32,444 nt of DNA. Origin: Fusobacteriaceae bacterium (GTDB lineage: Bacteria > Fusobacteriota > Fusobacteriia > Fusobacteriales > Fusobacteriaceae). Positions 14,073 through 22,893 of this stretch are shown here, in pieces. The notes under the pieces were generated by a model. That model did not search any database, was not told the DNA's origin, and was given only the letters and a program-made list of their open reading frames with translations. Within the stretch, counting starts at the first letter, position 1. Every line of letters starts with the position of its first letter. Made by a program: the position numbers and the translations under genes. The stretch lies in NCBI GenBank assembly GCA_017984315.1, contig JAGNZR010000008.1, forward strand, positions 20,775 through 53,218. Direction: 5' to 3'.

Positions 14073-15458
<1,386 letters not shown>

Positions 15459-18393: not shown

Positions 18394-19008
18394 TTAATTT
18401 TTTGTCTGTACTTTTTTTTCCAACATTCCCATGAGTAGCTTTGTTGTGTTTGTTTTAGTAAATCTTCCCACAACTTTGTAAACTATCTCATCCTCTGTTT
18501 CAATAACTTTTACCACTGGTAAAGAATCTATTTGGTGTTTTATTATTTTTTTTACACCAGATAAGATGCTCTCATCCTCTTCAGCATATATTAAATTCGG
18601 CATTCTAGTCATAACAATACTAACCGGCATCTTATTAATATCTAAATTTCCTATAACTGATTTCAATAGATCTTTTCTAGAAACTACACCTACTAAAGAG
18701 TCTTTTTGTATAACAAATATACTTCCAACATCCTCTGTAAACATATTTATAATCGTGTCGTAAACAGATGTATTTAAATCTATCATTATAGGGGAACTCA
18801 TTATCTCTTTTACATATCTAAAATCTTTTTTTTCTTTGTAATAATACCCTTTTTTTACTTTTGCCTCTATAATATTTTCTTTCGTCAATATTGAAAAATC
18901 TGTCCTTAAAGCTGATCTAGTTACTCCCAACTCTTTGGCTATATCATCACCTTTTATTGGCTGATTTTTTTTTACAATCTCTATTATTTTTTTTTGTCTA
19001 TCAGTCAA
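18394..19008 (-). CDS. ccpN: CcpN-like repressor (HTH plus tandem CBS domains)
   Basis: 204 residues: an N-terminal DeoR-like winged HTH (TDRQKKIIEIVKKNQPIKG, DDIAKELGVTRSALRTDFSIL) followed by two CBS domains (about 65-130 and 130-195) that bind adenine nucleotides. B. subtilis CcpN represses gluconeogenic genes, and CcpN homologues sit beside PPDK or its regulator in many Firmicutes. Adjacent ppdK, 51 bases downstream, is the likely target. I start at TTG 19008: it follows AGAGGGG at 7 bases and matches the family N-terminus; a GTG at 19059 would add 17 poorly conserved residues. A possible CcpN-type operator overlaps its own promoter (see 19093). It could instead control the divergent hyd operon. 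Confidence 0.85.
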   Translation of the reverse strand: MTDRQKKIIEIVKKNQPIKGDDIAKELGVTRSALRTDFSILTKENIIEAKVKKGYYYKEKKDFRYVKEIMSSPIMIDLNTSVYDTIINMFTEDVGSIFVIQKDSLVGVVSRKDLLKSVIGNLDINKMPVSIVMTRMPNLIYAEEDESILSGVKKIIKHQIDSLPVVKVIETEDEIVYKVVGRFTKTNTTKLLMGMLEKKVQTKN

Positions 19009-19092
19009 GATACATCCCCTCTTTAAGCGTACACTAATTATTCCCTTTAAAATTATCACTTTTCATTAACTTTTTCAACTTACCCTGAATAA

Positions 19093-19212: not shown

Positions 19213-19235
19213 TGTATTTTTAACTATTATTTTAT

Positions 19236-19241
19236 AGGAGG
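19236..19241 (+). promoter_or_regulatory. Ribosome binding site that places the hydE start at an ATA codon
   Basis: A full AGGAGG. Eight bases later comes the in-frame ATA at 19250. An in-frame TAG at 19235-19237 overlaps the site, so translation cannot start further upstream. Confidence 0.75.
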
Positions 19242-19249
19242 CGATTTTA

Positions 19250-20302
19250 ATAAATATAAAAACTATTATAGAAAAACTTTATTTAGAAAATAATGCCTCT
19301 GAAGAGGAGTTACTTTTTTTATTAACAAACCTTGACACTGAATCAAAAGAATATTTATTTCAAAAAGCCTATGAAATTCGTTTAAAAACTTATGGAAACT
19401 CTGTTTTTTTAAGAGGGTTAATTGAAATAAGCAGTTTTTGTAAATCTAACTGCATGTATTGCGGTTTAAGAGTTGATAATAAAAATGCCCAAAGATACAG
19501 ATTATCTAAAGAGGAGATTATAGAGTGCTGTGAAACAGGTTACTCTTTAGGTTTTAGAACTTTTGTTATGCAAGGTGGGGAAGACGCTTATTATTCAGAT
19601 GAGCTCCTTGTCAGTGTGATAAAAGAGATAAAACTAAAATTCCCTGATGCAGCTGTAACTTTATCTTTAGGTGAACGTTCAGAAGATAGTTATAAAAAAC
19701 TTTACGATGCTGGAGCTGACAGATACCTTTTAAGGCATGAAACTGCTAATAAAGAGATTTACGATTCTGTTCACCCTGGTATGAGCTTTGAAAACCGTAG
19801 AGAGTGCTTAAAAATTTTAAAAAAAATAGGGTTCCAAACAGGAGCTGGTTTTTTAGTTGGGCTTCCTAACCAGACAAATAAAGATTTTGTAAAAGATCTA
19901 TTATTTATAAAAGAGTTAGAGCCTGAAATGGTTGGAATAGGACCTTTTATTCCACAAAAAAATACCCCTCTTTCTCACATACCTAATGGGAATGTAGATA
20001 CTGTACTTATAATGTTGGCTTTAGTTAGACTTCTACTCCCTAATGTTTTACTTCCTGCTACAACAGCTTTAGGTACACTTGATCCTATGGGAAGAGAAAA
20101 AGGATTCAGAGTTGGTGCAAATGTAATTATGCCTAACCTTTCACCATTTGAAAATAGAGCTAAGTATGCTCTATATGACGGAAAAGTTTTTACTAATGAT
20201 GAAGCCGCTGAGGAATTAAAAAAAATAAAGAAAAAAATTTCAGATGCCGGTTTTGAAGCGATTATGACAAGAGGAGATAATGTGCTATGGAAAAGGAAAT
20301 AA
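19250..20302 (+). CDS. hydE: [FeFe]-hydrogenase H-cluster radical SAM maturase HydE, non-canonical start
   Basis: Radical SAM enzyme that helps build the dithiomethylamine-bridged two-iron subcluster of [FeFe] hydrogenase. Read from 19250 it is 350 residues, the usual HydE length, with the N-terminal helical region, the SAM cluster motif C64-x3-C68-x2-C71, and downstream LRVDNKNAQRYRLS, TLSLGE, GADRYLLRHETAN and GIGPFIP motifs. Between the in-frame TAG (19235) and ATG 19454 there is no ATG, GTG or TTG. ATG 19454 falls inside the cysteine motif, so it cannot make an active enzyme. AGGAGG 8 bases before ATA 19250 makes ATA the best start (related genes would be expected to have ATG there). Overlaps hydG by 16 bases. 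Confidence 0.9.
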   Translation: MNIKTIIEKLYLENNASEEELLFLLTNLDTESKEYLFQKAYEIRLKTYGNSVFLRGLIEISSFCKSNCMYCGLRVDNKNAQRYRLSKEEIIECCETGYSLGFRTFVMQGGEDAYYSDELLVSVIKEIKLKFPDAAVTLSLGERSEDSYKKLYDAGADRYLLRHETANKEIYDSVHPGMSFENRRECLKILKKIGFQTGAGFLVGLPNQTNKDFVKDLLFIKELEPEMVGIGPFIPQKNTPLSHIPNGNVDTVLIMLALVRLLLPNVLLPATTALGTLDPMGREKGFRVGANVIMPNLSPFENRAKYALYDGKVFTNDEAAEELKKIKKKISDAGFEAIMTRGDNVLWKRK

Positions 20303-21678
20303 ATTTTATAAATCATGAAGAGATCTACTCTCTTTTAGAAAACAATTCAAAAACTTCAAAAGAGGAAGTAGCAAAAGTATTAACAAAAGCTAAAAATAAA
20401 GAGAAAATAACTGCAAGGGATATTGCTACTCTATTGTCTATATCTGACGCTGACCAACTACAAGAGCTTTTTGCTTTAGCCGGTCAAATAAAGAAAGATA
20501 TTTATGGTGATAGAATAGTAGTTTTTGCACCACTATACGTTAGTGATTACTGTGTAAATAACTGCACATACTGTGGTTACAAAAAAGATAATAAATTTGC
20601 TAGAAGAAAACTTACTAGAGATGAGATCCAAGAAGAAGTTATACTTTTAGAAAAAATGGGACATAAAAGATTGGCATTAGAGGTTGGAGAGGATCCTGTT
20701 AACTGTTCTATCGACTATATACTTGATGCTATCGATGCTATTTATTCAACAAAAACAGAGAGCGGAGCAATTAGAAGAATCAATGTAAATATTGCAGCAA
20801 CAACTGTGGAAGATTATAAAAAACTTAAAGAAGCTAACATTGGAACATATATCCTTTTCCAAGAAACTTACCATAAGCCTACTTATGAAAAAGTGCACCC
20901 TAACTCTTTAAAGAGCAGCTACGAATACCATTTAAACGCTTTTTCTCGTGCTATGAAAGCAGGGATTGAAGATGTTGGAGCTGGTGTTTTATTTGGACTT
21001 GCAGATTGGAAGTTTGAAGTTTTAGCTATGATGATGCATAATGAGCATTTAGAAAAAGAGTTTGGTGTAGGGTTCCATACAATCTCTGTTCCTAGAATGA
21101 AAAAAGCTGAAGGGATGAATTTAGAGGAATACCCTAATCTAATAGATGATGACACATTCAAAAAGATTGTTGCTATCTTAAGAGTTGCTGTTCCATTCAC
21201 TGGTATTATCTTATCTACAAGAGAGAGTGCTGAACTTAGAAGAGAAGTTATTAAATATGGTGTTTCTCAAGTAAGTGCTGGATCATGTACTGGAGTAGGT
21301 GGTTACAGAGAGGGTGAGACTAGAAAAGAGAGTACACAATTTGATGTTGCTGACCAAAGAACTCCTTTAGAAGTTTTAAAAGAACTTTTAGATGAAGGGT
21401 ATCTGCCAAGTTACTGTACAGCTTGCTATAGAAGTGGAAGAACAGGGGATAGATTTATGCAGCTTGCTAAATCTGGTAACATCCAGAATGTCTGCCAACC
21501 AAATGCACTTATGACTTTAATGGAATATGCGATGGATTTCGGAGATGACGATTTAAGAGAGAGAGTATTTAAAATTTTAGAAAAAGAAGTTGAAAAGATT
21601 ACTAGTCCAGAAATGAAAGAGTTAACTATAAAAAATCTTAAATTAATTAGAGAAGGGCAAAGAGATCTCTTTGTTTAG
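20287..21678 (+). CDS. hydG: [FeFe]-hydrogenase maturase HydG (tyrosine lyase)
   Basis: Bifunctional radical SAM enzyme that cleaves L-tyrosine to p-cresol and dehydroglycine and converts the latter to the CO and cyanide ligands of the H-cluster, delivered as an Fe(CO)2(CN) synthon. 463 residues. The SAM cluster cysteines are C89, C93 and C96 (DYCVNNCTYCG). The second, C-terminal cluster motif C-x2-C-x22-C is complete at C377, C380 and C403, which separates HydG from the related thiamine enzyme ThiH. Starts inside the end of hydE (16-base overlap) and stops 9 bases before hydF, so all three are one translationally linked operon. Confidence 0.97.
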   Translation: MEKEINFINHEEIYSLLENNSKTSKEEVAKVLTKAKNKEKITARDIATLLSISDADQLQELFALAGQIKKDIYGDRIVVFAPLYVSDYCVNNCTYCGYKKDNKFARRKLTRDEIQEEVILLEKMGHKRLALEVGEDPVNCSIDYILDAIDAIYSTKTESGAIRRINVNIAATTVEDYKKLKEANIGTYILFQETYHKPTYEKVHPNSLKSSYEYHLNAFSRAMKAGIEDVGAGVLFGLADWKFEVLAMMMHNEHLEKEFGVGFHTISVPRMKKAEGMNLEEYPNLIDDDTFKKIVAILRVAVPFTGIILSTRESAELRREVIKYGVSQVSAGSCTGVGGYREGETRKESTQFDVADQRTPLEVLKELLDEGYLPSYCTACYRSGRTGDRFMQLAKSGNIQNVCQPNALMTLMEYAMDFGDDDLRERVFKILEKEVEKITSPEMKELTIKNLKLIREGQRDLFV

Positions 21679-21687
21679 GTGATATAA

Positions 21688-22893
21688 ATGAACAATACAC
21701 CAAATTCAAATAGGAAGCATATTGGAATTTTTGGAAAGACTAATGCTGGAAAATCATCTCTGCTTAACGCTATTTTAGAGCAGGATATTTCAATTGTTTC
21801 TAGCATCCATGGAACAACTACTGATTCAGTTACAAAAGCTATGGAACTTATCCCTTTTGGTCCTGTTTTATTTATTGATACTGCAGGGTTGAATGATGCT
21901 ACTGAACTTGGTCATTTAAGAGTTGAAAAGGCTTTAAAAGAGTTGAAAAGAACTGATTTTGCTCTGTATATAGTAGATGCAACTGAAATTAACAGTCATA
22001 CGAACTATAATAATTTTCTGAAAGATGAGTTGAAGATTTTTAAACAGTATAACCTTCCTTATCTTTTAATAATTAATAAAATCGATCTTTTAAATAAAGA
22101 GAGTTTAGAAAAATTAAAAGAGTGTTATAGTGATGCAGTATTTGTTTCAACTCATGATAGAGAGAGTATTTTAAACTTTAAATCTAAACTTATAAAAAAA
22201 TTATCTGTAACAGAGGAGGATCCATCTCTTATAAAAGATTTAGTTCCATACAATGGAACTGTTCTTATGGTTGTTCCTATTGACTCTGAAGCTCCTAAAG
22301 GGAGGATTATACTTCCTCAAGTGCAGCTTATTCGTGATTGCCTAGATTCTGGAATAAAATCTTATGTTGTTAGAGATACTGAACTTGAGTCTGCAATGTC
22401 TGATTTAAAGCAGATTGATTTAATAGTTACTGACTCTCAAGCCTTTAAAGAAGTAGATGCAATCGTTAAAGGAAGATACCCTTTAACTGGTTTTTCCATC
22501 TTATTTGCAAGGCAAAAAGGGGATTTAGCAACTTTAGTAAATGGTGCTCACGCTGTAAAAAATTTAAAAGACGGTTCCCGTATACTAATAGCTGAGACAT
22601 GTACACACAACACTTCCCATGAAGATATAGGAAGAGTTAAAATCCCTAATCTTTTAAAGAAAAAAACAGGTAAAAATTTAGAGTTTGAATTTAAAATGGG
22701 AAAGGATTTTCCAACAGATCTATCCTCTTATGATTTAGTAATTCACTGTGGTGGATGCATGATAAATAGAAAGAATATGCAAAATAGGATGGATGAAGTT
22801 TTAGAAAAAGAGGTTCCAATTACAAATTATGGAGTAGTTTTAGCATATTTAACTGGAATTTTAGACAAAGCTACTGAGATTTTCAATAATTAA
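21688..22893 (+). CDS. hydF: [FeFe]-hydrogenase maturation GTPase and scaffold HydF
   Basis: Scaffold that receives the HydE and HydG products and delivers the two-iron subcluster to the hydrogenase. 401 residues. N-terminal GTPase domain: P-loop GKTNAGKSS (about 16-24), switch region with TTTD, DTAG and NKID. A dimerisation domain follows. The C-terminal FeS domain carries C305-x-H307 and, 45 residues on, H353-C354-x2-C357 (HCGGC), the family's C-x-H-x(44-53)-H-C-x-x-C signature. GGTGAT precedes the ATG. The hydrogenase structural gene is not in this window. Confidence 0.96.
   Translation: MNNTPNSNRKHIGIFGKTNAGKSSLLNAILEQDISIVSSIHGTTTDSVTKAMELIPFGPVLFIDTAGLNDATELGHLRVEKALKELKRTDFALYIVDATEINSHTNYNNFLKDELKIFKQYNLPYLLIINKIDLLNKESLEKLKECYSDAVFVSTHDRESILNFKSKLIKKLSVTEEDPSLIKDLVPYNGTVLMVVPIDSEAPKGRIILPQVQLIRDCLDSGIKSYVVRDTELESAMSDLKQIDLIVTDSQAFKEVDAIVKGRYPLTGFSILFARQKGDLATLVNGAHAVKNLKDGSRILIAETCTHNTSHEDIGRVKIPNLLKKKTGKNLEFEFKMGKDFPTDLSSYDLVIHCGGCMINRKNMQNRMDEVLEKEVPITNYGVVLAYLTGILDKATEIFNN

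Follow-up and report, generated by a model that had tools for sequence, protein, structure and literature searches.

A probable AUA start codon behind a strong Shine-Dalgarno sequence in the hydrogenase maturase gene hydE of Fusobacteriaceae

Natural AUA starts are, to our knowledge, limited to a handful of bacterial genes. The related AUU start of Escherichia coli pcnB is said, from the work of Binns and Masters in 2002, to be inefficient and to limit the amount of the enzyme. The gene infC begins at AUU or AUA, is autoregulated by IF3 in E. coli, and has an AUA start in Staphylococcus aureus (PMC13009471). In S. aureus ccpN, infC and citZ all use AUA starts located behind strong Shine-Dalgarno (SD) sequences, and in ccpN and citZ reporters AUA gave about 10% of the AUG output, a value that for ccpN reached as much as 30% in rich medium (PMC13009471). 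Listeria monocytogenes mutants in which the ATG of rsbW was changed to ATA or ATT still made the protein, in the order ATG > ATA > ATT (PMC13068326). AUA initiation is a known mechanism, and hydE is a gene for which no earlier report of such a start was found in open-licence papers.

The window, that is, the whole stretch of 32,444 nt that was analysed, corresponds to contig C15 of the genome G000, a MAG. It contains hydE, encoding the [FeFe]-hydrogenase H-cluster radical SAM maturase, with hydG and hydF directly downstream; the frames of all three genes are unbroken. The features of this region are as follows:

18394-19059, minus strand: CcpN-like regulator, divergent to hydE (NF053704, 232 bits, below the 260-bit cut-off)
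19235-19237, plus strand: in-frame TAG, the upstream bound of the hydE frame
19236-19241, plus strand: perfect SD AGGAGG, overlapping the TAG stop
19250-19252, plus strand: ATA, most likely the hydE start codon, after an 8-nt spacer from AGGAGG
19250-20302, plus strand: hydE, 350 aa from the ATA
19454-19456, plus strand: first in-frame ATG of hydE, 68 codons downstream of ATA 19250
20287-21678, plus strand: hydG, with an ATG start and its own SD (TIGR03955, 649 bits)
21688-22893, plus strand: hydF, maturation GTPase (TIGR03918, 531 bits)

The hydE frame ends with TAA at 20302 and is open upstream as far as the TAG at 19235. Reading of the frame bore out the first-pass annotation in that the 68-residue extension between this stop and ATG 19454 contains no in-frame ATG, GTG or TTG, and in that a perfect AGGAGG lies 8 bases before ATA 19250. 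The near-cognate codons in frame are ATT 19244, TTA 19247, ATA 19250 and ATA 19256, with a few more further on. The same annotation had held that homology demands the upstream residues, including two of the cluster cysteines, and the alignments agree: the extended product matches TIGR03956 with 504 bits (cut-off 254.6) over model positions 1-339 of 340, and its homology begins at residue 5, aligning with residues 16-337 of the HydE of Thermotoga maritima, for which a solved structure is available (PDB). A start at ATG 19454 would remove 68 residues, including Cys 63 and Cys 67 of the CxxxCxxC motif (codons at 19439 and 19451), and would keep the third cysteine (19460) as the sole one. The motif is present as FCKSNCMYC only with the upstream extension, and a HydE begun at ATG 19454 would lack the means to bind the radical SAM cluster. 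An upstream uORF or a frameshift from another frame was also considered and was ruled out, the leader being without ATG.

AGGAGG occurs 15 times in the window against 12.8 expected. Because it is not rare by itself, the weight falls on its placement, on the lack of any other start, and on the recurrence of ATA at equal spacing in three genomes, which is described below. The 3' end of 16S rRNA, read in G064 and G062 (relatives from another genus), is GGATCACCTCCTTTCT, a standard anti-SD complementary to AGGAGG. At six bases, the hydE SD in the window (AGGAGGCGA) is shorter than those of the other ATA genomes, which are 8-mers. The hydE leader is weakly structured (z = +1.3), and no structured leader or RNA family was found near hydE; Rfam matches in the window are limited to a tRNA gene at 2049-2120 on the minus strand. 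A scan revealed no consensus promoter directly upstream of hydE.

The start of hydE was read, by SD position and by eye, in each of the 49 genomes of the window's family that encode HydE, a check that the first-pass annotation had proposed for related genomes. The starts comprise 38 ATG, 6 TTG, 1 GTG and 4 ATA codons. TTG is found in G022 and in five genomes of the genus g12, of which L015, L017, L020 and L047 were assigned by eye, and GTG in G062. The three further ATA genomes all belong to the genus g3 (G004, G064 and G067; loci L009, L035 and L036), and their hydE starts read GGAGGTGAGAGGA-ATA, GGAGGTGAGAGAG-ATA and AGGAGGTGTGAAAA-ATA, respectively, with an SD of GGAGGTGA or AGGAGGTG located 8 nt before the ATA. 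In the window's genus, g1, both other genomes (G001 and G002) start hydE with ATG, and ATA is known from one genome, the 78% complete G000. In G004 and G064 the ATA occupies the exact alignment position of the ATG of their congeners. Standard starts are not entirely lacking at these two loci, where an in-frame GTG overlaps the SD core and so cannot use that SD. The G067 case is unambiguous, with an in-frame TGA two codons before the ATA and the next ATG, GTG or TTG about 170 codons downstream. In g3 the strong SD was inherited from an ancestor and is older than the ATA, and is thus permissive rather than compensatory.

The spacing from GGAGG to ATA is exactly 8 nt in all four ATA genomes. Standard hydE starts in the three genera compared lie 3-6 nt after the SD, with the TTG of L018 (g12) also at 8, and nearly all hydE starts in the family have a spacer of 3-8 nt; the 8-nt spacing may be an optimum for weak codons. 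This regularity bears on the reading in which translation begins at a different near-cognate codon, namely AUA 19256 (14-nt spacer), UUA 19247 (5 nt) or AUU 19244 (2 nt). In a gapless protein alignment it is ATA 19256, and not 19250, that aligns with the ATG of G002; TTA 19247 stands at the place of the G022 TTG, each lying 5 nt downstream of AGGAGG with ATA after it; and infC in the family appears to begin at AUU. However, spacers of 2 and 14 nt fall outside the range of nearly all hydE starts, UUA is a very poor initiator, which counts against 19247, and every other ATA case lies at exactly 8 nt, so that we give a start at another of these codons a slim chance. Of the two codons between which the first-pass annotation had left the choice, AUA is favoured, as it recurs at the SD-positioned start in a second genus and is retained there, while AUU 19244 has no counterpart in the relatives. 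A base-calling or assembly error at 19250, with G as the true base, is highly improbable: the window does come from a fragmented MAG (79 contigs), but ATA stands at an equal distance from the SD in four separately assembled genomes, and the same codon would have to have been hit each time.

When 18 HydE proteins were placed in a maximum-likelihood tree, G004 and G064 fell into one clade (100/99) and G000 grouped with the ATG-bearing G002 and G001; the ATA label must have changed at least twice, on branches with good support. Between G004 and G064 about half of the synonymous sites of hydE have changed (dS 0.85, dN 0.096, dN/dS about 0.11; dS 1.04 and dN 0.175 in the first 68 codons), and despite this divergence both keep ATA and GGAGGTGAG. 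The low dN at high dS is not that of a dead gene; the ATA-bearing hydE of these two genomes is under purifying selection, and its ATA has been long retained. Relaxed constraint is not clearly apparent in the G000 copy. The branch of this copy in the tree is 0.20 versus 0.22 for G002, and its N-terminal 66 codons show 60.6% and 54.5% identity to the outgroups G011 and G022, versus 62.7% and 55.2% for G002; when G001 is the reference, the two differ more (54.5% for G000, 62.7% for G002).

These data also weigh against a recent loss of the start, an alternative that the first-pass annotation had raised. By this reading a mutation turned ATG into ATA in this strain, leaving little or no HydE and inactive hydrogenases. 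A single base change would be enough for it, both congeners carry ATG, and the window's species is represented by a single genome. However, three genomes of a second genus also carry ATA, which was kept there under purifying selection, the G000 copy has no excess of changes, and the frames of hydE, hydG, hydF and two hydrogenases are unbroken. Moreover, translation from AUA has been measured in bacteria of other groups (PMC13009471, PMC13068326). Start loss is therefore disfavoured, and we hold it to be improbable.

HydE is encoded in a single copy in G000, along with two [FeFe] hydrogenases scoring above the family cut-off, which indicates that hydE is needed. Each ATA genome likewise encodes one HydE and full-length [FeFe] hydrogenases with unbroken frames. 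The start of hydG, which is ATG wherever it is visible next to hydE, overlaps the end of hydE in the window by 16 nt (20287-20302), and translational coupling of the two genes across the overlap is possible; most genomes of g1, g3 and g10 show a comparable overlap. A tyrosine phenol-lyase is encoded near hydEGF at 14073-15455 on the minus strand (TIGR02618, 833 bits), and may compete for one substrate with HydG, which consumes tyrosine.

The listed GTG start of the divergent CcpN-like regulator gives a protein of 221 aa; the true start is likely a TTG after AGAGGGG. In G001, G004, G011, G022, G062 and G064 ccpN and hydE are widely separated or lie on different contigs, and the CcpN-like gene is a mere neighbour of hydE. 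The use of ccpN as a local AUA parallel, serving as a positive control, was rejected, as its start is ATG or TTG in most of the family. A possible exception is G010 (L139), in which an ATA lies 8 nt after GAGG (GAGGTGGTATATATAAAACTGACT) and an in-frame GTG overlaps the SD; this ccpN may start at ATA, as reported for the ccpN of S. aureus and Bacillus subtilis.

About 740 homologue-supported ORFs, a few of them rRNA shadows, were surveyed in stretches of G000, G064 and G062. When the comparison is confined to protein genes with a plausible full-length partner, hydE of G000 is the one case of extensive homology (66 residues) upstream of the first standard start. Aligned starts fell on ATG, GTG or TTG in 554 of about 640 comparisons, and most of the others were offsets that have a standard start within a few codons. 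The few other ATA or ATT codons aligned with homologue starts were rejected, having an ATG within 2 codons, and one further ATA was a plain misalignment in a gene with ATG starts further off. In this survey, which is blind to a near-cognate start common to both homologues, as in infC, hydE is the sole ATA with a strong SD and without a usable neighbouring start. Fixed non-canonical starts are found in 6 of 2265 core genes of L. monocytogenes (PMC13068326), a rarity that makes chance an unlikely source of two separate gains within one gene. Recurrence, retention, uniqueness in the survey and the ATG of hydG together make a sequencing error or a simple loss of the start unlikely.

We consider it probable, from comparison of these sequences, that hydE is an intact, working gene with a weak AUA start at 19250 behind a strong SD. 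The unobstructed SD 8 nt upstream would position the ribosome at the AUA and make up for its weak codon-anticodon pairing, and fMet-HydE of about 350 aa would be made at a fraction of the AUG rate. HydG, the next protein of the cluster, would be translated from its own SD and AUG. Dosage is the likely reason for AUA being tolerated or favoured, as HydE turns over and would be needed in smaller amounts than HydG. In vitro HydE performs about 10 turnovers versus about 2 for HydG, and activation falls to about 5% if HydE is left out (PMC3457958), suggesting that HydE is needed but that a modest amount may be enough.

In 11 genomes of the family (L057-L067) infC appears to have no usable standard start, and its loci show an SD that ends in GGTGT(T/C)T, with ATT ATT TC(T/G/A) GA(C/T) coming next. 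In these genomes infC appears, judged from this arrangement, to start at AUU, as in other bacteria, and the usual IF3 discrimination is thus likely to be present. By analogy with the described AUA starts (PMC13009471, PMC13068326), weak and possibly IF3-controlled translation of hydE is plausible. A selected translational throttle, in which AUA was gained repeatedly in hydE and not in hydG, sets the stoichiometry of the maturases and makes hydrogenase maturation responsive to IF3 or initiator-tRNA (one-carbon) status, seems to us rather unlikely. Neutral drift, by which the AUA start is real but has no dosage or regulatory role, has a chance not far below even, and is a rival to the purpose of the AUA start while being compatible with the mechanism. 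The GTG of G062 and the TTG of G022 and the five g12 genomes suggest loose constraint on the strength of the hydE start, and the SD in g3 did not arise as compensation. Against drift stand the independent gains in one gene, the persistence of ATG in hydG and the absence of a comparable case from the sampled ORFs.

With AUA as the start, one enzyme gene would have switched to this codon at least twice in related genera, and a one-base change would be enough to probe how start strength affects a defined maturation pathway. Gene callers limited to ATG, GTG and TTG would truncate this essential maturase, and hydrogenase-positive genomes would then look HydE-defective.

Among the known systems, infC resembles hydE in that its near-cognate start follows a strong SD and in-frame standard starts are lacking, but infC is a near-universal gene with an autoregulatory start, whereas HydE has no role in translation. 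The ccpN genes of S. aureus and B. subtilis and citZ of S. aureus are metabolic genes in which, as in hydE, AUA follows a strong SD. The use of AUA in ccpN and citZ was shown by Ribo-RET and reporters, while that in hydE is proposed from sequence comparison; furthermore, the AUA of ccpN is conserved, whereas that of hydE is sporadic, with repeated gains. The rsbW mutants share with hydE the weakening of a start by one base change to ATA, but they come from laboratory selection and two related strains, while the ATA of hydE has been fixed over long divergence. pcnB provides the likeness of an inefficient start limiting an enzyme, although with AUU, in another gene and in another phylum.
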